A DNA stretch of 64,000 nucleotides. Source: Flavobacteriales bacterium (GTDB taxonomy: Bacteria; Bacteroidota; Bacteroidia; Flavobacteriales_D; Sanyastnellaceae). A program made the position numbers and the translations under genes. The stretch covers positions 62,001 through 126,000 of the forward strand of contig JAIXWX010000034.1 of NCBI GenBank assembly GCA_027491075.1, read 5' to 3'. Every line of letters begins with the position of its first letter. The stretch's first letter is position 1. Of the stretch, positions 19,675 through 40,903 are shown piece after piece. Under the pieces are notes generated by a model. It searched no databases. It was not told the origin of the DNA and saw only the letters and a list, made by a program, of their open reading frames with translations.

Positions 19675-20211
19675 TTGAGAACTCTTAACATTTTATACAT
19701 TCTCGCGCTGATTTTGAACTTATCTAATTCTACCTATTCACAAGAGGTGGACTGTAGAGATTTTTTAGTGCTAGGCATGAGCCCCAACTCCCAAAATCCT
19801 AATGAATATTTTGTAATTATCCAGTTTTCTGCCAGTGGGGATGTGTTTATAGATTATCCTTAGGTTTCGGCTGTAATTGATTGCGCTGGCGATACCATTG
19901 CAATCTGAGAAATTTCTCTAGACACCTGTTCCTTATCATTTGGGTCAAATAACATAGTCGATATTTCTAGTAATGCTGAAAGTAAGTTCTTGATTTATCC
20001 AAATCCTGTAAGAGACATTATTACAGTCACATCGAATAGTGGAGAGGAAGAAACAAATTATGTGATCTACGACGCACTGGGAAAGGAAGTGCTCAAGGGA
20101 AGATTGAATTCTTTGAATTAAATAATTTCTGTAGAAGAACTTCCATCTGGGATGTACTTCATGAGATTTAAAAATGAATCGAACGAAACGAAACGGTTTA
20201 TTAAAGAGTAG
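19675..20211 (+). pseudogene. Decayed T9SS cargo gene with three in-frame stop codons
   Basis: One continuous frame encodes a signal peptide (RTLNILYILALILNLSNS...YSQ), a short Cys-containing body (QEVDCRDFLVLGMSP, VSAVIDCAGDTIAI) and a T9SS type A sorting domain (FLIYPNPVRDIITVTS, IYDALGKEVLKG, ELPSGMYFMRFKNE) up to the final TAG at 20209. It is interrupted by TAG 19861-19863, TGA 19906-19908 and TAA 20119-20121, with no frameshift. No in-frame ATG starts it; TTG 19675 directly follows an in-frame stop. Each internal stop is one C-to-T change from Gln or Arg. The body also seems shorter than related secreted proteins I recall, suggesting an internal deletion after GDTIA. I judge it a recent pseudogene. 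Confidence 0.8.
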
Positions 20212-30050: not shown

Positions 30051-32471
30051 CTATTTCGGTTTGCGTTTACCTTTCTTCTTATCGTCCTTATCAAATTCAC
30101 CATAGCCGCCATAAGTGTAACCATAGCCGTAGCCGTAGCCATAGCCGTAGCCATAACCATAGCCATACTTATAGGCATATTTTCCGTAATAGTATTTCCA
30201 GCGCTTCTGTTTGATGTTGTTCAACATCAATAGACAGTTTTCAATATTGTTTTGACGCAACAAATCTTCCAAGTACCGGACACCTTGCTTAGTAGCCTTC
30301 TCAGTATTCAGAATGAATATTCCTAAATCCACTTTCTTGATCAGAATCAATGAGTCACTAATCAAAGAAATCGGCGGAGTATCAATGATGATGTAATCAT
30401 AGATAAGCTTGTTCTCTTCGATCAATTCATCTACTTTGGAACTCATTACCAATTCGGAAGCATTAGGAGGAATAGGTCCTGCAGGTATCACATCTAGATT
30501 TTCGATCTGCGTTGGCACAACGGAATCTTTATAATTCGTTCTGTTGATCAAATAACTAGAGATACCGCTCACATTCTCAATTCCAAAGATCTTGTGAGCT
30601 TTCGGTTTATGTAAGTCAAAGTCGAGCAATAGTACTTTTTTGGAAGCCTTTGCTAAAACACTGCCTAGGTTCACACTCACAAATGTTTTTCCTTCCCCGG
30701 GATGAAGTGAAGAAACCATTATTACTTTAGGACCTTCCGTATTAAGAACATATTGAAGATTGGTTCGAATACTTCTGAAAGCCTCTGAGACATTCCCGCG
30801 TGGATTATTGATGAGGGCAATCGGTTCCACATCAATGTCTGGGTGATTGGGAATACCTCCAAGAATATTGATCTTGGTCAAGCTCTTGAGTTCTGCGGTA
30901 TTTTCAATTCGTTCGAAGAACAGCATTCTGATGAAACCTACCAAGAGCGCAAGGCCGAGAGCAATTCCTAATGCCAAATACATTGCTGCTTTTTTATCGG
31001 GGCCTACAACCCCCAATGAACGGGCGGTTTCAATAACGCTGGTTTGCGGGATAATAGCAGCTCGTGCAATAACGGTATTGGCTTTTTTCTCTAAAAGAAA
31101 TGTATATAAACCTTCGTTTACTGTCAATTTACGTTCAATACTCAAAAGGTCTCTCTCTGATTGGGGGATATTCTTTAGTAGATCCTCTAATCGAAACACT
31201 TCACTCTGCACATCTTGTTGGCGTTCCTCCATGGCTTTCTTGGCGTCGCGAGTGTAACGGTAAATATTGTTTTTCACCAACTTGATTGAACTATCTACCC
31301 GCGCCAAGCGGCGATCGCTGTCTTTATAGTCTACTACCAATTCTGATCTTTTTACACGCAATTCAAATAATTGCATAATGAGATCTTTTAAAAGATTGTC
31401 TTCTTTTTCCAAATAGGTGAGAGGAGGTAGCACCGGACTTTCTCGCTCTCTGTATAAGAACTCTTCAAGCCCTTTCAAGGCTTCATAGCGCAGTCGGAGT
31501 TGTTGTTGCTCCAACTCTACCTTGGTCAATTGTTCGAATGCAGCCGACTGCTCCCTGTTCAAGTCAAGAATTTCTCTTTGCTCCTTATAAGAGTTCAGAG
31601 AACCTTCTAATGAGTCAAGAATATGAGTGATTTCTGCCAACTGTAAATCAATGAATCTCTCTGTGTTTTTGTTGATGGTGATTTGGTTGGTAAGGGTGAA
31701 ATCGATGTATTCTTTGGCCAAAGTGTCTAGGAACATTTTTGCACGAGATGGCAATTCGTCCTTTAGTGTGAGCGTCAGAATACTGGTGTATTCCATATTT
31801 TCAATGCTCAAATTGCCTTTGTACTTGTTTACCAAATACTGTGGAGAGTGCACCTTGAATTGGAAATTCTGTTCTTGCACTGTGCGCAACCACGTTTCAT
31901 CCAAGCGAGGAGATAATTCTACTTGAATCGCAAAATTGACATCCTCATGGTATTTTCCAAATTCAAGTTCGTAGGTCTGTTTTTTGTTTTGTAATTGATA
32001 GCTGAGCTCATAACGTTTCAAGTCAAGCACCCTCAAATTGAAAGGAATATTGAACAATGCAGGGTCTAGACGTCTCCAATCACATTTGATGTTGATCGCG
32101 TCGAAATGGTCTACTTGCAATACTTTCAAGCGGCCTACCAAGTAGTAGGATTGAGAATAATCTACTTTCTCCAAAACACGATTGAGCATGTCATAAGAAG
32201 AAAGAATTCTCTTTTGATTGGTGATGTCTTGAAGGACTGAATAATAACCTAAATTGTTAAGAAGCTTGGTTTGATAGTCATAGGTTTCGGATGACTTTAA
32301 AAGGATTTCTGTTTTGGCAGCATAAATACTCTGCTTTCGGTGATTGAGCACATAGGCAATCACGAACGCGATTAAACAGAATCCCATCATGAGATACCAG
32401 TTCTTCCCAATAAACTTAATAATAGGTCTTAAATCATCTGCGTCGAGAAAACTGGTCTTGGCTTGTGACAT
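30051..32471 (-). CDS. Wzc-like polysaccharide chain-length tyrosine autokinase
   Basis: An 806-residue inner-membrane protein that controls export and polymer length of capsule or exopolysaccharide. It has an N-terminal Wzz domain between two membrane helices (about residues 30-50 and 500-520), a long coiled-coil periplasmic part, and a cytoplasmic BY-kinase: Walker A SSLHPGEGKTFVSVNLG, Walker A' VLLLDFDLHKPK, Walker B YDYIIIDTPPIS. The C-terminal tail is an exceptional Tyr-Gly tract, the expected autophosphorylation cluster. It heads an operon with a GT2, an SpsF-like and a DUF4910 gene, and faces an exosortase operon across a shared promoter region. Confidence 0.92.
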   Translation of the reverse strand: MSQAKTSFLDADDLRPIIKFIGKNWYLMMGFCLIAFVIAYVLNHRKQSIYAAKTEILLKSSETYDYQTKLLNNLGYYSVLQDITNQKRILSSYDMLNRVLEKVDYSQSYYLVGRLKVLQVDHFDAINIKCDWRRLDPALFNIPFNLRVLDLKRYELSYQLQNKKQTYELEFGKYHEDVNFAIQVELSPRLDETWLRTVQEQNFQFKVHSPQYLVNKYKGNLSIENMEYTSILTLTLKDELPSRAKMFLDTLAKEYIDFTLTNQITINKNTERFIDLQLAEITHILDSLEGSLNSYKEQREILDLNREQSAAFEQLTKVELEQQQLRLRYEALKGLEEFLYRERESPVLPPLTYLEKEDNLLKDLIMQLFELRVKRSELVVDYKDSDRRLARVDSSIKLVKNNIYRYTRDAKKAMEERQQDVQSEVFRLEDLLKNIPQSERDLLSIERKLTVNEGLYTFLLEKKANTVIARAAIIPQTSVIETARSLGVVGPDKKAAMYLALGIALGLALLVGFIRMLFFERIENTAELKSLTKINILGGIPNHPDIDVEPIALINNPRGNVSEAFRSIRTNLQYVLNTEGPKVIMVSSLHPGEGKTFVSVNLGSVLAKASKKVLLLDFDLHKPKAHKIFGIENVSGISSYLINRTNYKDSVVPTQIENLDVIPAGPIPPNASELVMSSKVDELIEENKLIYDYIIIDTPPISLISDSLILIKKVDLGIFILNTEKATKQGVRYLEDLLRQNNIENCLLMLNNIKQKRWKYYYGKYAYKYGYGYGYGYGYGYGYGYTYGGYGEFDKDDKKKGKRKPK
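30121..30168 (-). repeat. Eight tandem TAYGGY hexamers coding for a Tyr-Gly tract
   Basis: Eight consecutive hexamers of the type CCATAG/CCGTAG (plus strand) encode alternating Tyr-Gly near the C-terminus of the Wzc-like kinase. Third-position T/C variation means the repeats are not identical copies, but slipped-strand length variation is still possible and would change the number of phosphorylatable tyrosines. Confidence 0.85.
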
Positions 32472-32614: not shown

Positions 32615-32836
32615 ATGAAAACACTGAAGTTAATTGTTTTAATAGCTATATTGTTAGCACCAGCATTGCTAATGGCTCAGCCACCAGATCCTCCTGGAGG
32701 AGGCTCTCCTCCTTGCGGCCCTCCGTTTGGTCCAGCGTGCATCCCCATTGACGGCGGAATAGGATTTCTGATCGCAGCGGGTGTGGCATTGGGTGGAAAA
32801 AAGGCGTATGACATGGCTCGCAGTAAATCGAAATAA
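32615..32836 (+). CDS. PID-CTERM exosortase substrate (73 residues)
   Basis: A tiny exported protein: signal peptide (residues 1-21, cleavage after LMA), a Pro/Gly-rich spacer 22-43 with Cys34 and Cys42, then the sorting signal PIDGG (44-48), a hydrophobic helix (about 49-61) and a basic tail (KKAYDMARSKSK). This tripartite C-terminus is the PID-CTERM signal of Bacteroidota exosortase systems. After both processing steps only about 22-24 residues would remain, possibly with one disulfide. The stop overlaps the exosortase ATG by one base, so it is almost certainly the cognate substrate. The function of the peptide is unknown. Confidence 0.82.
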   Translation: MKTLKLIVLIAILLAPALLMAQPPDPPGGGSPPCGPPFGPACIPIDGGIGFLIAAGVALGGKKAYDMARSKSK

Positions 32837-33360
32837 TGTTTCGAGGATTATTTCAAAATCCATTCTCCAGGTTCTTAATTCTTAGTAGTATCCTCTATTT
32901 GAGTTGGTACTTCACTTATGAGTTCTATCTAAAGGATCAAACTTTACTCAACGAATACGTCATCGACCATATCGTACGCAGTTCCGAGGCCATCCTCCGA
33001 TTCATGGGCTATGATTTGAATTACTACGATGATGGCAACTTAAGAGTCAGGCTTGGAATCCTTGGTAGCGGAGGAGTGGTGATCGGTGCACCTTGCGACG
33101 GGATTGTTCTACTTGCTCTCTTCACGGTTTTCATGATTGCCTACGCGGGCCCTCTGAAACACAAAGTGTGGTATCTACCCATGGGTTTGCTGGTGATCCA
33201 TTGGCTAAATATTGGTAGGGTTGTAGCATTGTCAATAATTGTAGCGACTTCGAGAGAGTGGTTTACATTTAACCATGATTATACCTTTACCTTATTGGTA
33301 TATGCTGTGGTATTCTTGCTATGGTATATTTGGATTATAAAATTCTCTGGAAAAAAATGA
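32836..33360 (+). CDS. Exosortase, XrtX-like
   Basis: A 174-residue integral membrane transpeptidase-like protein. The catalytic triad of exosortases is visible: Cys87 in GAPCDGIVLLALF, Arg128 in NIGRVVALSI and His147 in FNHDYTFTLLVY, each near the end of a membrane helix. Exosortases cut their substrates at a C-terminal motif, probably joining them to a lipid or glycan. The name XrtX is from memory of the PID-CTERM pairing and is less certain than the exosortase fold; XrtF is the alternative. It lies between its likely substrate and an associated membrane protein, with one-base and four-base overlaps. Confidence 0.88.
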   Translation: MFRGLFQNPFSRFLILSSILYLSWYFTYEFYLKDQTLLNEYVIDHIVRSSEAILRFMGYDLNYYDDGNLRVRLGILGSGGVVIGAPCDGIVLLALFTVFMIAYAGPLKHKVWYLPMGLLVIHWLNIGRVVALSIIVATSREWFTFNHDYTFTLLVYAVVFLLWYIWIIKFSGKK

Positions 33361-33890
33361 GTCGTATCCAGTGGTTTTTTATAGTTGTATGTATGATATC
33401 CATGGGTTTTTTTCAAGAATGGGTCAAAGTGAACATTAATTTTACCCTAGAGCAAGCCCCGCGAGTGGATGGTTTCTATTCTTATACGCATGAAGAAAGA
33501 AGTACATACCTAGAAGAGTTGAGGAGAAATAGGCCTTTTGATTATTATCATAGCCACTATCCCATAAAGGCTTTACAATATTTCAACGAGGGAAGTTTGA
33601 GAAAATTGAAATGGGTGATGACGGTTGTTTTTGTAGGGTGGTTTTATTGGATCAACAGATGGTTGGTGAGCAAGTTAATAAAAGATCCGAGGGGCAGGAG
33701 ATGGTTGTTGACGACTTACGTGCTTTCTTTTATCGGAGCCTTCATTATTTACACAATGGGATGGGTTTTTGGATCTAATGATTTATTTTATAACATTAGT
33801 AGAAAGATGGTTGGTGCGTTGCAATCCCCGGTGCCCTTGATGATGAATTGGGCAGGGTGGCAACTTTACGTTCAACAAAGAAAACAATGA
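33357..33890 (+). CDS. Exosortase-associated membrane protein
   Basis: A 177-residue membrane protein starting at ATG 33357, which overlaps the exosortase stop by four bases. There is one N-terminal helix (WFFIVVCMISMGFF), a soluble loop of about 60 residues rich in charged and aromatic residues (NINFTLEQAPRVDGFYSY), and three further helices. The pattern fits the XrtX-associated membrane protein usually found beside this exosortase; I have not verified this. Its role is unknown, perhaps presenting substrate or lipid. It has no catalytic motif I recognise. Confidence 0.72.
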   Translation: MSRIQWFFIVVCMISMGFFQEWVKVNINFTLEQAPRVDGFYSYTHEERSTYLEELRRNRPFDYYHSHYPIKALQYFNEGSLRKLKWVMTVVFVGWFYWINRWLVSKLIKDPRGRRWLLTTYVLSFIGAFIIYTMGWVFGSNDLFYNISRKMVGALQSPVPLMMNWAGWQLYVQQRKQ

Positions 33891-34375
33891 ATACTGAGAT
33901 ATCAATGGATTTGCCTGATACTGCCCGCGTATGGGTTTATATTGCTAATAGGGCACTGAGCAATGCTGAGGTGGAGAAAAGTAAGTCACTTTTGGTAGAT
34001 TTCATGAAGGGGTGGACTGCTCATGGCGCTGCGTTGACCGCTGATGCAACAGTGTTGTACAATCGCTTTGTGATACTTTCTGTGGATGAAAAAAGAGCAT
34101 TGGCAAGCGGTTGTAGTATTGATAAAAGTGTTCATTTTATGAAATCTCTGGGAGAAATTCTGGGAGTAGATTTTTTTGATAGAATGTTGACGCCATACTT
34201 AGATAATGAGACCATTCAATGCGTAGGACTTCATCAATTTTGGGCACTCAGAAAAGCCGGTGTAGTAACTGATGAGACGATTGTTTTTAATCCACTTGCA
34301 AAATCGTTAGGGGAGTTTCGTCAGCAGTGGGTAATTCCATTCAAAAATTCTTGGCACGCAGAAATGTGGAAATAA
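33887..34375 (+). CDS. Conserved Bacteroidota protein of unknown function
   Basis: A 162-residue soluble protein containing ARVWVYIANRALSNAE, YNRFVILSVDE and ASGCSIDKSVHFMKSLG, strongly conserved in Bacteroidota from memory and sometimes annotated as an ABC transporter ATPase although no Walker motif is present. I reject that label. The conserved Cys in SGCSID and the charged pocket might be functional. Its ATG overlaps the upstream stop by four bases, making it the last gene of the exosortase operon, but it is widespread outside such operons, so it may be a passenger. Confidence 0.7.
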   Translation: MNTEISMDLPDTARVWVYIANRALSNAEVEKSKSLLVDFMKGWTAHGAALTADATVLYNRFVILSVDEKRALASGCSIDKSVHFMKSLGEILGVDFFDRMLTPYLDNETIQCVGLHQFWALRKAGVVTDETIVFNPLAKSLGEFRQQWVIPFKNSWHAEMWK

Positions 34376-34539: not shown

Positions 34540-37500
34540 ATGATCCAAAAGTTTACAAAACTTTGGGCATTGACCTTTTTCATTTCCTTTGCTTTCATTG
34601 GCACATGGAGTGGTCTAAGCGCTCAAACTTTTTCAAATCCAGCGACCATTACAATTAATACAGTAGGACCTTCAACTCCTAGTCCGTCTGTCATTAACGT
34701 CACTGGTGGACCGTCTTCTATTGCTGTTGTTTCGGTGACCTTAAATAACGTGAGTCATACATGGCAGAACGATATCGATATCTTATTGGTCGCACCCAAT
34801 GGAGAGTCGCTGGTGTTAATGTCGGATGCTGGACCTGACTTTGGCAGTTTTACTGCTCAAACGTTTATTGTCGCTGACTTTGCGGGGGTGCCCTTTCAAG
34901 AGTTGGCATTGAATACTGCAGGATCTTATCGACCGACGAATTATGGAACGGGAGATCTGTTTACAAACTTTGTAGGAATCGTAGGAAACTCTGCGCCTGC
35001 TGGTACAGCTACTTTCTCATCTGTTTTCGGTGGGGACAACGCAAACGGAAACTGGAGTCTCTTTATTCAAGACGACGTCGGAGGGGATGCGGGATCTGTG
35101 GCGGGATGGAGCATAACATTTGCAGGGGCCATCAATGGCTGCACCGACGCAAATGCTTGTAATTATAACCCCGCTGCTACGGCAAATGATGGAACTTGCA
35201 TCTTTCCTGGATGTACAGATAATGGCGCGGTAAACTACGATCCAGCCGCCGGCTGCGACGATGGTTCATGCTGCTTTAGCAATATTGTTACACTTAATAT
35301 GTTTGACGATTTTGCCGGATGGCAAGGCGCGGTAGCAACTATTACCGACGCTTTCAGTGGAGCCTCATTCGGGACTGCTACTTTACCTGGAGGAACATTG
35401 GGAAGCGCAGAATTCTGCTTACCAGATGGTTGTTACTTTATTGAGGTAATCGCTGGAACATGGCCCACTGAGGTGTCATGGGAAATTGTTACCGCAGCAG
35501 GTGTCGTGGCAGAAGGCGGTGCACCAAGCAATGTTTTGTTCACTGTAGGAAGCGCTGATTGTGTTTTGGGTTGTACGAACAACGGTGCTACCAATTATAA
35601 TCCAAGTGCAACTGTAGATAACGGTACTTGTTTGTTCTGTTCTCCAGGACAACAAGTATTGCAAATTAATATGTTTGACTCTTTCGGTGACGGTTGGAAT
35701 GGAGCACAATATTTCATTCTTAATTCAGCGAATCAAACCGTTGCCTCTGGCGACCTAGATGGTGCTTTGGCTGGTAATGGAGTAACTGAAGGCTTTGATG
35801 TAGTTTGTTTGCCAGCGGGTTGTTATAATATAAGTGTTACAGGAGGTCAATATCCTACTGAGGTGTCATGGAGCTTAACAGATGTAAGTGGTAACATCGT
35901 TGCTCAAGGCGATAATCCCGATGCCAGTCTTGTTGCATTTCCATGGGCGGGTGCGCAAGGATGTGTCGTACCTGGTTGTCAAGATCCAAATTGTAATAAC
36001 TACAATCCACTTGCAACAATCGATGATGGCTCTTGTGAATGCCCTCCAGCAAATGATGATTGCGCGGATGCAGTAGCTATTGGTTGTGGTGTAACCGTTT
36101 CTGGATCTACCATTTTCGCCAATGATGATTCTGCGGTAGCAGGTTCATGCTTGGGAATAGAAATAACATCTCCTGGTGTATGGTATACACTCATCGGAGA
36201 TGGAAGTCAATTCAATTTAAGCACTTGTGCCTCTGCTGTGGATACTAAAATCAATGTATATGCTGGAAACTGCAACAACTTAACCTGTGTAGCAGCGAAT
36301 GACGACGATCCTGCCTGTGCTGGTTTTGCTTCCACCGTAAACTTTACATCGCTGCCAGGCATACAATACTATGTGCTTGTTTCTGAATTTGGTCTCGGTG
36401 TAGGTATAGACTTTGAACTGGTAGTAGAGTGTATTGATTGTACTGGTCAATCTCCAATTAATGATCAGTGCAGTTCCGCACTACCTCTTCCCGATGGGGC
36501 TCAACTTTCGGGCTCTTTATGCTGTACCAATGCGGATGATATTTCTGAAGTAAATGCATTTGCGAGCGGTTATGGTGTGTGGTATGCCATGAATAGTGGT
36601 AATTTCGATACCTTCGATTTTAACCTCACCAATGTGTCTGGAGGTAATGTTGGTCTTATTGTTTACTCCTCTGCTTCTGGCAACTGCTCCACATTGGATC
36701 TTGTTGCTCTTTGTGGTCCTGTTGCTGGTCAATGCGCTGGCGATTTATATGCTGCAAACATTCCAGTTACACAGAATACGCAATATTATTTCTTGGTTTA
36801 TACCACTCAACCAGGTGCATGTGGAGAGTATACCTTCAGTGCAGATCTGACAGGAGTAGGATGTACTGATCCATTCGCTTCGAACTATGAACCCATAAAC
36901 ACCATTGAGGACGGAACTTGTACTTATGATGGTCCACCGATCAATGATCTTTGTGCTGATGCATTTCCATTGGTTTGTGGCGTTCCTTCATCAGGTACTA
37001 CAGCGCTTTCAACAGCTACTGGATCTACCACCGCATGCGGAATATCCAATGGCGACAATGGAGTTTGGTATTCTTATGCAGGAGATGGACAAGTCGTAAC
37101 GTTGAGCACATGCGGTTCTGTTATTGACAGCCGAATTGAAGTATTTTCATCCAACAATGGCTGTGCTGGTCCATTCACTTGCGTGATTGGCGAAGACAAT
37201 GATGCTTCTGACGATGGCTGCGGCTTCTTTGACGGTGATGACGCCGATGTTCAATTTGTTTCACAAGTCGGGGTAACCTACTATATCTACATCTCTGCAG
37301 GTTCAGTGGATACCAATGGTGATTTTCAAGATGATCTATTTGACGGTGGTTTCGTCATCGATGTCCAATGCGCTCCATTGACACCCGGTTGTCAAGACGA
37401 TTGTGCATGCAATTACAATCCTGCGGCCAACCAAGACGATGGATCATGTGATTATTTCTCTTGTGTTACATGCGCTGAAGGAACTCCCTTTATGTTCGAT

Positions 37501-38508
37501 ATGCAGGACAGTTATGGAGATGGATGGAACGGAAATACCTATACTATTACAGACTTGGAGGGCAACGTGATTGCTGAAGGTTCGCTTGATGATGCTCAGT
37601 GCTCTACTGACAACGATAACTTTGTAGGCCCAGAATTCGGATTTGACGTGTTCTGTCTTGCTGATGGTTGTTACGAAATAGAAGTAGGTGGTGGTTTCTT
37701 CCTTTTGGAAATCAGCTGGACACTCATGGATTCACAAGGAAATGTGGTCTTAGCTGGAGAAGCTGAAACAACTTCATTTACCATTGGAGCTGGCCTTTGC
37801 GGATGTACAGACCCAGGGGCTTGTAACTACGATCCGCTTGCTACAGATGACGACAACTCCTGTGAATACAACTCCTGTGCGGGTTGTACAGACGTTACTG
37901 CTTGCAACTTTAATCCAGCAGCTACTATTTCGAATCCTGCCTCTTGCTGTTTTGAAAACTGTTTGACTTTCTTAATGAATGACCAGGCTGGAGATGGGTG
38001 GAATGGAAATACTGCAGTTATTACTGATGCTGGAACGGGAGATATTCTTGGCACTGCTACCCTTGCCAATGGTGCTTCTGGTATTGCCACATTCTGCGCT
38101 GGTTCTGGTTGTTACACTATTACTGTTGGAGGTGGTACATGGATGAATGAAGTGAGTTGGACTCTTCTTGGAACGAATAGTGGAGTAGTCACTGGAGGCG
38201 CTGGAGGCGCAGCTCAACAGTTTAGCATAGGTGATAGTAACTGTTCTCCAGGTTGTACAGAACCGTTTGCGTGCAATTACGATCCCGAAGCGGGATTAAG
38301 CGATTGTACATTATGTGAGTACACATCATGCCAAGGATGTACATATTCTCAAGCAGATAATTATGATCCAGCGGCAATAATTGATGATGGATCTTGTATC
38401 ATCACCGCTGTATCATCATGTCCGGAAGACTTAAACCAAGACGGGTTGGTCGGAGTTGCCGATCTACTTCAGTTGCTCGGAGCATTCGGAACTACCTGTC
38501 CTGAATAA
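34540..38508 (+). CDS. P-domain surface protein with Cys-rich repeats and dockerin-like tail
   Basis: A 1322-residue exported protein (signal peptide ending near LSAQT). Residues about 30-195 resemble the proprotein convertase P/Homo B domain (VTLNNVSHTWQNDIDILL, GNWSLFIQDDVGGDAG). The rest mixes ten 20-25 residue Cys-bounded units of the type GCTDPGACNYDPLAT with DDGSC, four larger modules with MFDSFGDGWNGAQY-like cores, and three PPC-like modules (WYTLIGDGSQFNLSTC). It ends not in a T9SS domain but in DLNQDGLVGVADLLQLLGAF, a dockerin-like Ca-binding loop. It is probably extracellular. How it is anchored is unknown. Confidence 0.83.
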   Translation: MIQKFTKLWALTFFISFAFIGTWSGLSAQTFSNPATITINTVGPSTPSPSVINVTGGPSSIAVVSVTLNNVSHTWQNDIDILLVAPNGESLVLMSDAGPDFGSFTAQTFIVADFAGVPFQELALNTAGSYRPTNYGTGDLFTNFVGIVGNSAPAGTATFSSVFGGDNANGNWSLFIQDDVGGDAGSVAGWSITFAGAINGCTDANACNYNPAATANDGTCIFPGCTDNGAVNYDPAAGCDDGSCCFSNIVTLNMFDDFAGWQGAVATITDAFSGASFGTATLPGGTLGSAEFCLPDGCYFIEVIAGTWPTEVSWEIVTAAGVVAEGGAPSNVLFTVGSADCVLGCTNNGATNYNPSATVDNGTCLFCSPGQQVLQINMFDSFGDGWNGAQYFILNSANQTVASGDLDGALAGNGVTEGFDVVCLPAGCYNISVTGGQYPTEVSWSLTDVSGNIVAQGDNPDASLVAFPWAGAQGCVVPGCQDPNCNNYNPLATIDDGSCECPPANDDCADAVAIGCGVTVSGSTIFANDDSAVAGSCLGIEITSPGVWYTLIGDGSQFNLSTCASAVDTKINVYAGNCNNLTCVAANDDDPACAGFASTVNFTSLPGIQYYVLVSEFGLGVGIDFELVVECIDCTGQSPINDQCSSALPLPDGAQLSGSLCCTNADDISEVNAFASGYGVWYAMNSGNFDTFDFNLTNVSGGNVGLIVYSSASGNCSTLDLVALCGPVAGQCAGDLYAANIPVTQNTQYYFLVYTTQPGACGEYTFSADLTGVGCTDPFASNYEPINTIEDGTCTYDGPPINDLCADAFPLVCGVPSSGTTALSTATGSTTACGISNGDNGVWYSYAGDGQVVTLSTCGSVIDSRIEVFSSNNGCAGPFTCVIGEDNDASDDGCGFFDGDDADVQFVSQVGVTYYIYISAGSVDTNGDFQDDLFDGGFVIDVQCAPLTPGCQDDCACNYNPAANQDDGSCDYFSCVTCAEGTPFMFDMQDSYGDGWNGNTYTITDLEGNVIAEGSLDDAQCSTDNDNFVGPEFGFDVFCLADGCYEIEVGGGFFLLEISWTLMDSQGNVVLAGEAETTSFTIGAGLCGCTDPGACNYDPLATDDDNSCEYNSCAGCTDVTACNFNPAATISNPASCCFENCLTFLMNDQAGDGWNGNTAVITDAGTGDILGTATLANGASGIATFCAGSGCYTITVGGGTWMNEVSWTLLGTNSGVVTGGAGGAAQQFSIGDSNCSPGCTEPFACNYDPEAGLSDCTLCEYTSCQGCTYSQADNYDPAAIIDDGSCIITAVSSCPEDLNQDGLVGVADLLQLLGAFGTTCPE

Positions 38509-38570: not shown

Positions 38571-38611
38571 ATTTGTGGCGTACAAATCCCCAATACAACA
38601 ATTTGTGGATC

Positions 38612-40903
38612 ATGAATAACACGCTACTGTCATTACTTATCGCTGTACTCCCCCTAGTCGGCAGAGCTAATTTTTTACCAGATTATCTCCTTAGAGATCG
38701 TCAAGGAAGCACTACTTTGTTTACAGAGGTTTCTTCAGAAATGCTGCCAACTTGTGCTTTTAATAGTATCACCGTACAAATCGGCACTAGCTCATTTCCT
38801 GATGAAGTGAGTTATATCCTAACGGATGATAACGGCACTGAGTTTCTTAACATCACCGGAGGCGGCGCACCTGCCTCTTATGAATTGTGCCTTCCAAATG
38901 GATGCTATTCTTTTCAAATGTTTGATGCATTCGGCGACGGATGGAATGGCGCTACCTATTCAATTCAATTCACCGGTGGTGCGAGCATTATATCAGGTAA
39001 TTTCCCAAACATTCCCGCATTCAGTGCATTTGAGAAAACGGAATACGTTTTAATAGGGCCAGGAGTTCTGGGTTGCAATGATCCAGGTGCCTGCAATTAT
39101 GATCCTTTGGCAACGTGCAATAATGGCTCTTGTGATTATACTTCTTGCATTGGGTGTATGAATAGTCTCGCTTGTAATTACAACGCTTCAGCAACTATTG
39201 ATGACGGAAACTGCTGTACCGAAAATTGTCTGACAATTGAAATGTATGACATGGTGGGTGATGGTTGGGACGACGGTGTGTACAACGTCCGCGATGAAGC
39301 AAATACAATCATAGCTACTGGAACTTTGGGATATCCACTGTTCGATGATATCGAAAGCCTCTGTCTGCCAGATGGTTGCTATTCACTTACCATAGAAGGT
39401 AGCGGATACCCCGAAGAAATTACATGGACTTTGAATGGAGCAGAAGGAGGGCCATACAGTGGAGATGGACTGGATAATAACTTTATTTATTTCAGCGTAG
39501 GCTCTGGGGCGTGCTATGGCTGCACGGATCCTGCGGCATGCACTTATAATCCTTTTGCTTTCATTGATGACGGATCGTGTATCAATGGACCTTGTGTTGC
39601 ATTTGATAATCCATGGACGGCGAATGCCATTACATTGACAAACTTTCCAACTTGTACTACATTAAACAGAACGCTCGTAGGAGCTACTGCCACTGCCGTT
39701 GCTACATCAGCGGACGTGACTGGTGAAGATATCTGGTTCAGCTTTACCTCCCCAACAAATGGTGCTCGATTCGTTGTAACCAGCACAAGTGCGGATATCG
39801 TTTTGGAAATTTTAGACGATAATTATCAGACAGTGGAAAGTGTAAATTTAGTGGCAGGAATTGGTGGAGAAGTGCTCAACACAGATGATTTAGTAGCTGG
39901 TGAATCGTACTATTTGGGTGTGAGAAATTTCAACTCAGCAATCGGAACAGGTGCATTTAGCTTGTGTGCCATGAGTTTGAGAAGCAGCAGATGTCCTGTA
40001 AATCTGGGTCCTTATCCGTTGTGCTCTTCTTTGAAGGCAGCACACGCAGGAACTACAAGCTATAACTTTATTTTCACAGACCTCTCTGATATGAGTGTAC
40101 ACGCTGCCACCCAGTGGAGTTCAACATCCATTCTTCTCAATACTATCAATGGGCTTCAATACGGAGGTATCTATGAACTTTCAGTACAGTCAGTATTTAC
40201 CTTACAAAATTCATTAGGTCAAAATGAGGTCATGTACGTAAATCCTAGCTCAAGTTGTGTAATTACAATTGATGATGCTCCAACAGTAGCGGTGAACAGT
40301 TCATGGAGTTGTTCTAATTATGGACCAATAAATCGCAACACTTGGATTTCGTTTAATCCCCGTATCTGCACAGTCATTGGTTACGAAATTGAATTGATCA
40401 ATCAGAATGGAATGCAAGGTCCAATTTATTTCCAGAGTATGACTACCAGTAGATTCTTTCGCTTCCTAGATATACCAGCCGCATTGAACGGCAATCTTTA
40501 TAATTGTCGTATTCGTCCTTTGTTTAATGGATACGAGGGAGAATGGGGACCTGTAGTATGTTTAAGAGTCGCGGGAAGTGCTTCTTTCTGGACAATCTCC
40601 AACGATACAGAGTCAGTTTTCTCATCGGTGTCTTCTTCGGAGTTAAACTTCAGCGCGTCGGTGTATCCAAACCCAAACGATGGTCATAAAATATCAATGA
40701 TCATTGACACAGAATCAGAGGAAGAAGTATTTGTGAGCGTCTTCGATATGATGGGAAGATTGATACATTCTCAACGCGTGATAGCGGATGGAATAACTAA
40801 TGCAGAGTTGGATGCAGATTTAAATCTTGCCTCAGGTATGTACAACGTAACTTTCGTTGCTGGAAATAGCAAGCACACCGAACGGCTTATCGTAAGAAAG
40901 TAA
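38612..40903 (+). CDS. Cys-repeat surface protein with T9SS type A sorting domain
   Basis: A 763-residue exported paralog of the preceding gene's repeat modules. From the ATG at 38612 (an upstream in-frame TTG at 38573 would bury the signal peptide) there is a signal peptide, two GDGWNG/GDGWDDG modules, three GCTDPAACTYNPFAF-type Cys units, a PPC-like domain (EDIWFSFTSPTNGARF) and a variable region with GNLYNCRIRPLF. The last 90 residues (SVYPNPNDGHKISM, VFDMMGRLIHSQRV, LASGMYNVTFVAGN) are a T9SS type A sorting domain. It likely reaches the surface by T9SS, unlike its upstream neighbour, which has another tail. Confidence 0.85.
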   Translation: MNNTLLSLLIAVLPLVGRANFLPDYLLRDRQGSTTLFTEVSSEMLPTCAFNSITVQIGTSSFPDEVSYILTDDNGTEFLNITGGGAPASYELCLPNGCYSFQMFDAFGDGWNGATYSIQFTGGASIISGNFPNIPAFSAFEKTEYVLIGPGVLGCNDPGACNYDPLATCNNGSCDYTSCIGCMNSLACNYNASATIDDGNCCTENCLTIEMYDMVGDGWDDGVYNVRDEANTIIATGTLGYPLFDDIESLCLPDGCYSLTIEGSGYPEEITWTLNGAEGGPYSGDGLDNNFIYFSVGSGACYGCTDPAACTYNPFAFIDDGSCINGPCVAFDNPWTANAITLTNFPTCTTLNRTLVGATATAVATSADVTGEDIWFSFTSPTNGARFVVTSTSADIVLEILDDNYQTVESVNLVAGIGGEVLNTDDLVAGESYYLGVRNFNSAIGTGAFSLCAMSLRSSRCPVNLGPYPLCSSLKAAHAGTTSYNFIFTDLSDMSVHAATQWSSTSILLNTINGLQYGGIYELSVQSVFTLQNSLGQNEVMYVNPSSSCVITIDDAPTVAVNSSWSCSNYGPINRNTWISFNPRICTVIGYEIELINQNGMQGPIYFQSMTTSRFFRFLDIPAALNGNLYNCRIRPLFNGYEGEWGPVVCLRVAGSASFWTISNDTESVFSSVSSSELNFSASVYPNPNDGHKISMIIDTESEEEVFVSVFDMMGRLIHSQRVIADGITNAELDADLNLASGMYNVTFVAGNSKHTERLIVRK

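Follow-up and report, generated by a model that had tools for sequence, protein, structure and literature searches.

An exosortase X system with a peptide-sized PID-CTERM cargo in a Flavobacteriales bacterium, and the genetic pairing of PID-CTERM genes with type IX secretion cargo

The window studied here, a stretch of 64,000 nucleotides from a Flavobacteriales bacterium (all coordinates without a locus prefix are positions in it), carries a genuine and well conserved dedicated exosortase system, in which the gene of a PID-CTERM microprotein directly precedes that of an exosortase X (XrtX). A tiny cargo is a property of the whole PID-CTERM family, phylum-wide. There is also a strong link between PID-CTERM genes and the cargo of type IX secretion, which the original prediction for this operon had missed. 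We hold with moderate confidence that XrtX forms a dedicated system in which the peptide would be conjugated to an envelope glycolipid, partnering a type IX surface protein or a polysaccharide. Exosortases have been known since 2006, and with NCBI already curating the XrtX and PID-CTERM families this is not a new kind of system. The micro cargo, a lineage-specific Cys pair and the type IX pairing appear undescribed in the literature that we searched, which covered few subscription journals and in which no experiments on any XrtX or PID-CTERM protein were found.

The genes of the operon (Table 1) overlap throughout, by TAATG between the microprotein and XrtX and by ATGA at each of the two following junctions. 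The microprotein consists of a signal peptide (residues 1-21), a Pro/Gly linker, PIDGG (44-48), a transmembrane helix and a basic tail; Cys34 and Cys42 lie within a 22-residue Pro/Gly-rich stretch, with P44-I45-D46 next. It scores over the cutoff of the PID_CTERM model NF046080 (36.5 bits against 26, E 2.9e-9, residues 44-66 of 73). The exosortase is a borderline member of NF046081, exceeding the cutoff of 170 by 0.6 bit (170.6 bits; 170.1 in the genome search), and its next best model, XrtF (TIGR04128), stays at 85.4 bits, under the cutoff of 90. All 26 diverse relatives compared keep C87, N125, R128, N146 and H147 unchanged, and the AlphaFold2 model has a pLDDT of 94; neither a search by sequence for solved relatives of XrtX nor a fold search of the PDB with XrtX and with its membrane partner gave a match. 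This partner reaches 53.2 bits with NF046082, under the cutoff of 75 (E 2.6e-14, best stretch 77-168), and is best described as related to the XrtX-associated family by position and sequence, without being filed as a member. Most loci of the order keep it next to XrtX, and K84, Q155 and S156 (numbered from base 33360) are invariant. Gene order, overlaps, both Cys residues, PID at 44-46 and the exosortase residues Cys87, Arg128 and His147 were all as originally predicted when the open reading frames were read, and neither a lack of profile matches nor unrelated substrates together with absence of the peptide from relatives was seen. The inclusion of the fourth gene in the system, on the other hand, had to be abandoned, as the gene is widespread in the order (93 of 100 genomes, many of them without XrtX) and adjoins XrtX in no family other than that of the window. 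Its product (33887-34375, plus strand), which had no credible Pfam or NCBIfam match, contains an SGCSID motif.

Table 1. Features of the exosortase locus and its surroundings, and the PID-CTERM-like microproteins of XrtF genomes
Feature	Position	Strand	Remarks
Wzc-type chain-length protein / tyrosine kinase	30051-32471	-	Head of divergent polysaccharide operon; Pfam match
PID-CTERM microprotein	32615-32836	+	73 aa; matches NF046080
Predicted mature peptide Q22-D46 (QPPDPPGGGSPPCGPPFGPACIPID)	32678-32752	+	Putative cleavage sites
Exosortase X (XrtX)	32836-33360	+	174 aa; NF046081 match
XrtX-associated membrane protein	33357-33890	+	177 aa; NF046082 under cutoff
Conserved unknown gene (fourth gene)	33887-34375	+	162 aa; in operon by position
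Secreted repeat protein	34540-38508	+	1322 aa; P_proprotein domain; directly downstream of operon
Secreted protein	38609-40903	+	764 aa; type IX sorting domain TIGR04183, 42.5 bits, E 4.9e-11
PID-CTERM-like microprotein	L171:7253-7495	-	XrtF genome
PID-CTERM-like microprotein	L180:5789-6133	+	XrtF genome
PID-CTERM-like microprotein	L181:5207-5407	+	XrtF genome
PID-CTERM-like microprotein	L184:5339-5587	-	XrtF genome
PID-CTERM-like microprotein	L185:6217-6435	-	XrtF genome

Enzyme and substrate occur together far beyond chance. In a phylum sample of 296 genomes, PID-CTERM matches were present in 49, in numbers from one to nine, and every one of these genomes also encoded an XrtX-family protein, compared with 41 of the remaining 247. 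Among 80 XrtX loci fetched independently from named genomes, which were mostly metagenome-assembled and came from Flavobacteriales and other Bacteroidota, 54 carried a microprotein directly upstream of XrtX, in 53 of these cases with at least two Cys. A scan of the window's own genome (3.02 Mb, 99.7% complete) gave exactly one PID-CTERM match, adjoining XrtX, and within its family such a match is present in 62 of 101 genomes, exactly one in all but two. In the loci read for this family the PID-CTERM gene lies directly ahead of XrtX. Genus g6 is the exception (L099:7952-8296 and L101:7417-7758, both on the minus strand): there the PID protein is gone from XrtX, longer and Cys-rich, with 10 Cys in the mature part in L099, and the final 4 bases of a large secreted gene overlap with its gene. 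No plasmid copies of the system were found. The idea of a private enzyme for a single cargo holds in the window's family and not in other orders, which often have several substrates; a genome there encodes one to nine PID-CTERM proteins, most of them at a distance from XrtX, so that “single-substrate” is a local description.

The small size of the cargo is much more widespread. We compared 79 distinct PID-CTERM proteins, 33 from the window's order and 46 from other orders, which share a tiny design with, in nearly all, a Gln start, and a Pro/Gly-rich linker. The median length from signal peptide to PID was 22 residues in the window's order and 13.5 in the others; mature parts are roughly 11-26 residues long, with a minority reaching up to about 56, although the signal cleavage sites come from a simple rule, so that single lengths may be off by several residues. 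The mature part begins with Gln in 31/33 and 46/46 proteins, respectively. At least two Cys are found in all 33 mature parts from the window's order and none at all in the 46 from other orders, so the Cys pair was rejected as a general PID-CTERM feature; it is lineage-specific and cannot be essential to the general mechanism. The predicted mature product of the window, about 22-25 residues, Pro/Gly-rich and with the conserved Cys pair, agrees well with what had been proposed from this stretch. With a cargo so small across the phylum, an ordinary sorted protein is unlikely, and the modified peptide itself is likely to be the product.

The genes next to PID-CTERM genes located away from XrtX point to a possible partner for this peptide. 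The same-strand gene just upstream usually codes for a large secreted protein: 38 of 48 such neighbours encode the type A type IX sorting domain TIGR04183 (35 of 48 by the Pfam equivalent) against a background of 48 to at least 150 TIGR04183 genes per genome (roughly 2-4.5% of genes), counts that are not fully independent since some genomes contribute several pairs and related genomes share pairs. A comparison within the same loci found a type IX neighbour for 24 of 28 PID genes versus 10 of 255 other genes, and is the weaker of the two tests because its profile was built from the PID neighbours themselves. The domains of the type IX partners vary (kelch, lectin-like, fibronectin III, passenger repeats). 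PorU was present in all 14 genomes checked. Pairing of a PID gene with a large secreted gene is also found in the window's order (L082, L084-L086, L088, L096, L249 and L255), and in L249 and L255 the PID gene is on the other side of XrtX, yet right behind the type IX gene. A 995-aa frame (L175:5121-8102, minus strand) was considered as a fused Rosetta stone for the type IX partner and rejected; it is an MSEP-CTERM protein (TIGR04286, 742.6 bits), unrelated to the partners, whose tail also scores over the PID-CTERM cutoff (28.8 bits), possibly a change of sorting enzyme.

In the window's own family this pair is broken. Here the gene upstream of the PID gene is the divergent Wzc, while large secreted genes, one of them type IX, lie downstream, so that the type IX link is indirect for the window copy. 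The product of 34540-38508 or that of 38609-40903 could be the surface partner, a guess from position. The former, kept downstream in most loci of the family, had no type IX domain in the profile search, and its candidacy as a homologue of a PID partner of the same family was dismissed, the match being confined to 20 C-terminal residues (E 0.017); a comparison of the type IX protein at 38609 with L085 gave no match. The tail of the 1322-aa protein (38392-38505, plus strand), DLNxDGxVxxxDLLxLLxxFGxxC, recurs at six further places in the genome and is similar to how the L099 PID partner ends; it may be an unrecognised sorting tail. Elsewhere in the window (19993-20208, plus strand), a type IX sorting domain match with an internal TAA, where the surrounding DNA contains no long open frame, is likely the remnant of a secreted-protein gene.

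XrtX is also located among genes for polysaccharides or nucleotide sugars. In the window's order it faces Wzc accompanied by ABC exporters (Wzm/Wzt-like), glycosyltransferases and sugar genes; Wzc is divergent from PID-XrtX in most relatives and in 54 of the 80 independently fetched loci. The Wzc protein of the window has a Pfam match to AAA_31, with Wzz and GNVR both below their own cutoffs, and its C-terminal end (30051-30200, minus strand) is a long YGYGYG-type Tyr/Gly tail, as in tyrosine-kinase chain-length proteins. The divergent polysaccharide operon noticed at the outset is thus real. However, dependence of one on the other did not stand, as Wzc relatives are common in genomes without XrtX (for example, in family f4 at 44-46% identity); Wzc was rejected as a strict companion, the link is one of synteny, and both Wzc and the fourth gene are hitchhikers or loose companions. 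In four genomes of one other family (L137, L142, L148 and L150), the only one where this was seen, XrtX is inside a nucleotide-sugar operon with two nucleotide-sugar dehydrogenases, an oxidoreductase, an acetyltransferase and an aminotransferase that resembles wbpA-B-D-E, a “Wbp-like” label given by gene order and family level and not by equivalog matches. The Wbp/Vim pathway of Porphyromonas and Tannerella supplies the sugar through which type IX cargo is joined to its lipid anchor, and whether it also serves CTERM-type sorting systems was said by the same authors to need further work (PMC7468200). For archaeosortase A, reasoning of this kind from gene neighbourhood, with artA beside pssA, correctly pointed to lipid-pathway genes required for anchoring (PMC7157517).

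Another explanation is that XrtX has no role in type IX secretion and joins the peptide to the polysaccharide of the Wzc operon or to its lipid carrier, as proposed for PEP-CTERM/EpsH. The gene content around XrtX in the window's order would fit, and 90% of EpsH homologues are near polysaccharide genes (PMC1569441). We nevertheless consider it unlikely, given that Wzc does without XrtX so often, that PID genes in other orders sit with type IX cargo and not with polysaccharide genes, and that disruption of EpsH left the polysaccharide itself unaffected (PMC1569441). The microprotein might also be no substrate at all, remaining uncleaved as a membrane protein with two helices and serving as a regulator or helper of XrtX or of the export machinery. 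Its two hydrophobic segments with a short loop, and the almost complete lack of cargo to be sorted, would be as expected, but the conserved Ala-Gln signal peptidase site, the tripartite sorting tail and the many PID-CTERM copies far from XrtX make this improbable. Slightly less credible still is a released peptide, a small pheromone or other signal sensed by the cell and freed by the XrtX cut. Tiny size, N-terminal Gln, a Cys loop conserved in one order and a dedicated processing enzyme would all suit such a signal; nevertheless, no conserved receptor or regulator was present in the loci examined, it would be odd for a signal to exist in as many as nine similar copies in one genome, many of which follow different type IX genes, and those relatives of the enzyme that have been characterised serve to anchor their targets (PMC11980579, PMC7157517). 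The signalling role once suggested for this peptide found no particular support.

We return to the conjugation of the peptide to an envelope glycolipid. The microprotein would be exported by Sec and cut by signal peptidase after Ala21, leaving an N-terminal Gln, with the C-terminal helix holding it in the inner membrane. XrtX (Cys87, Arg128, His147), together with its small membrane partner, would then cut at or near PIDGG, and the active-site Cys would hand the peptide of ~25 residues to an amine-bearing envelope lipid or glycan, while a disulphide between Cys34 and Cys42 probably closes a small loop adjacent to the newly formed C-terminus. The pairing of XrtX with the microprotein and its processing are well supported, the cut site being a prediction; conjugation, the nature of the conjugate, the disulphide, the location and the role are what we infer. 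As the whole XrtX cargo amounts to some 11-26 residues, the modified C-terminus of the peptide is directly readable by mass spectrometry, making the question of the acceptor testable.

A side result concerns XrtF. Five genomes with an XrtF exosortase (199-239 bits, cutoff 90) have a PID-CTERM-like microprotein, scoring below the PID-CTERM cutoff in one of the five, that is convergent to what we take, from reading its sequence, to be a riboflavin synthase-like gene. The targets of XrtF have been stated to be unknown, and in Flavobacterium johnsoniae losing XrtF or its partner gene strongly lowers biofilm (PMC10936215), which makes the microprotein beside the riboflavin synthase-like gene a candidate substrate. 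A bolder and rather doubtful generalisation is that XrtX and XrtF are inner-membrane ligases placing a micropeptide of about 11-26 residues on a Wbp-type anchor glycolipid, which would give particular type IX cargo a cognate surface partner or anchor by a second route beside PorU and A-LPS. The statistical tie, both with type IX cargo and with a pathway like that of the anchor sugar, joins two surface-sorting systems, a connection previously raised only as a question (PMC7468200).

Among known systems, the closest is XrtX/PID-CTERM itself (NF046081, NF046080, NF046082), with substrate and enzyme over their cutoffs beside an XrtX-associated-like protein, although the enzyme passes by such a small margin, the partner falls below its model and the order carries a Cys pair that other orders lack. 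XrtF of F. johnsoniae (TIGR04128; PMC10936215) is the closest other exosortase, also from Bacteroidota and adjoined by a small partner gene, but no substrate gene was found beside it in the loci read, and the window protein is under the XrtF cutoff. PEP-CTERM/EpsH (PMC1569441) shares the tripartite C-terminal tail, the polysaccharide setting and an enzyme that crosses the membrane several times and whose invariant residues would suit a transpeptidase; however, EpsH has a median of eight diverse targets per genome and at least eight transmembrane helices, while the window XrtX has 174 residues and one micro-substrate. The MrtJ/JDVT-CTERM pair (PMC11980579) is likewise a two-gene unit of a sorting enzyme and a single target, with an enzyme of the unrelated CPBP type. 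Finally, type B type IX cargo and its cognate SprF/PorP-like partner (PMC9143113) provide a parallel for a large surface protein adjoining a dedicated partner, although there a beta-barrel goes with a type B CTD, whereas the PID system combines a micropeptide with a type A CTD.
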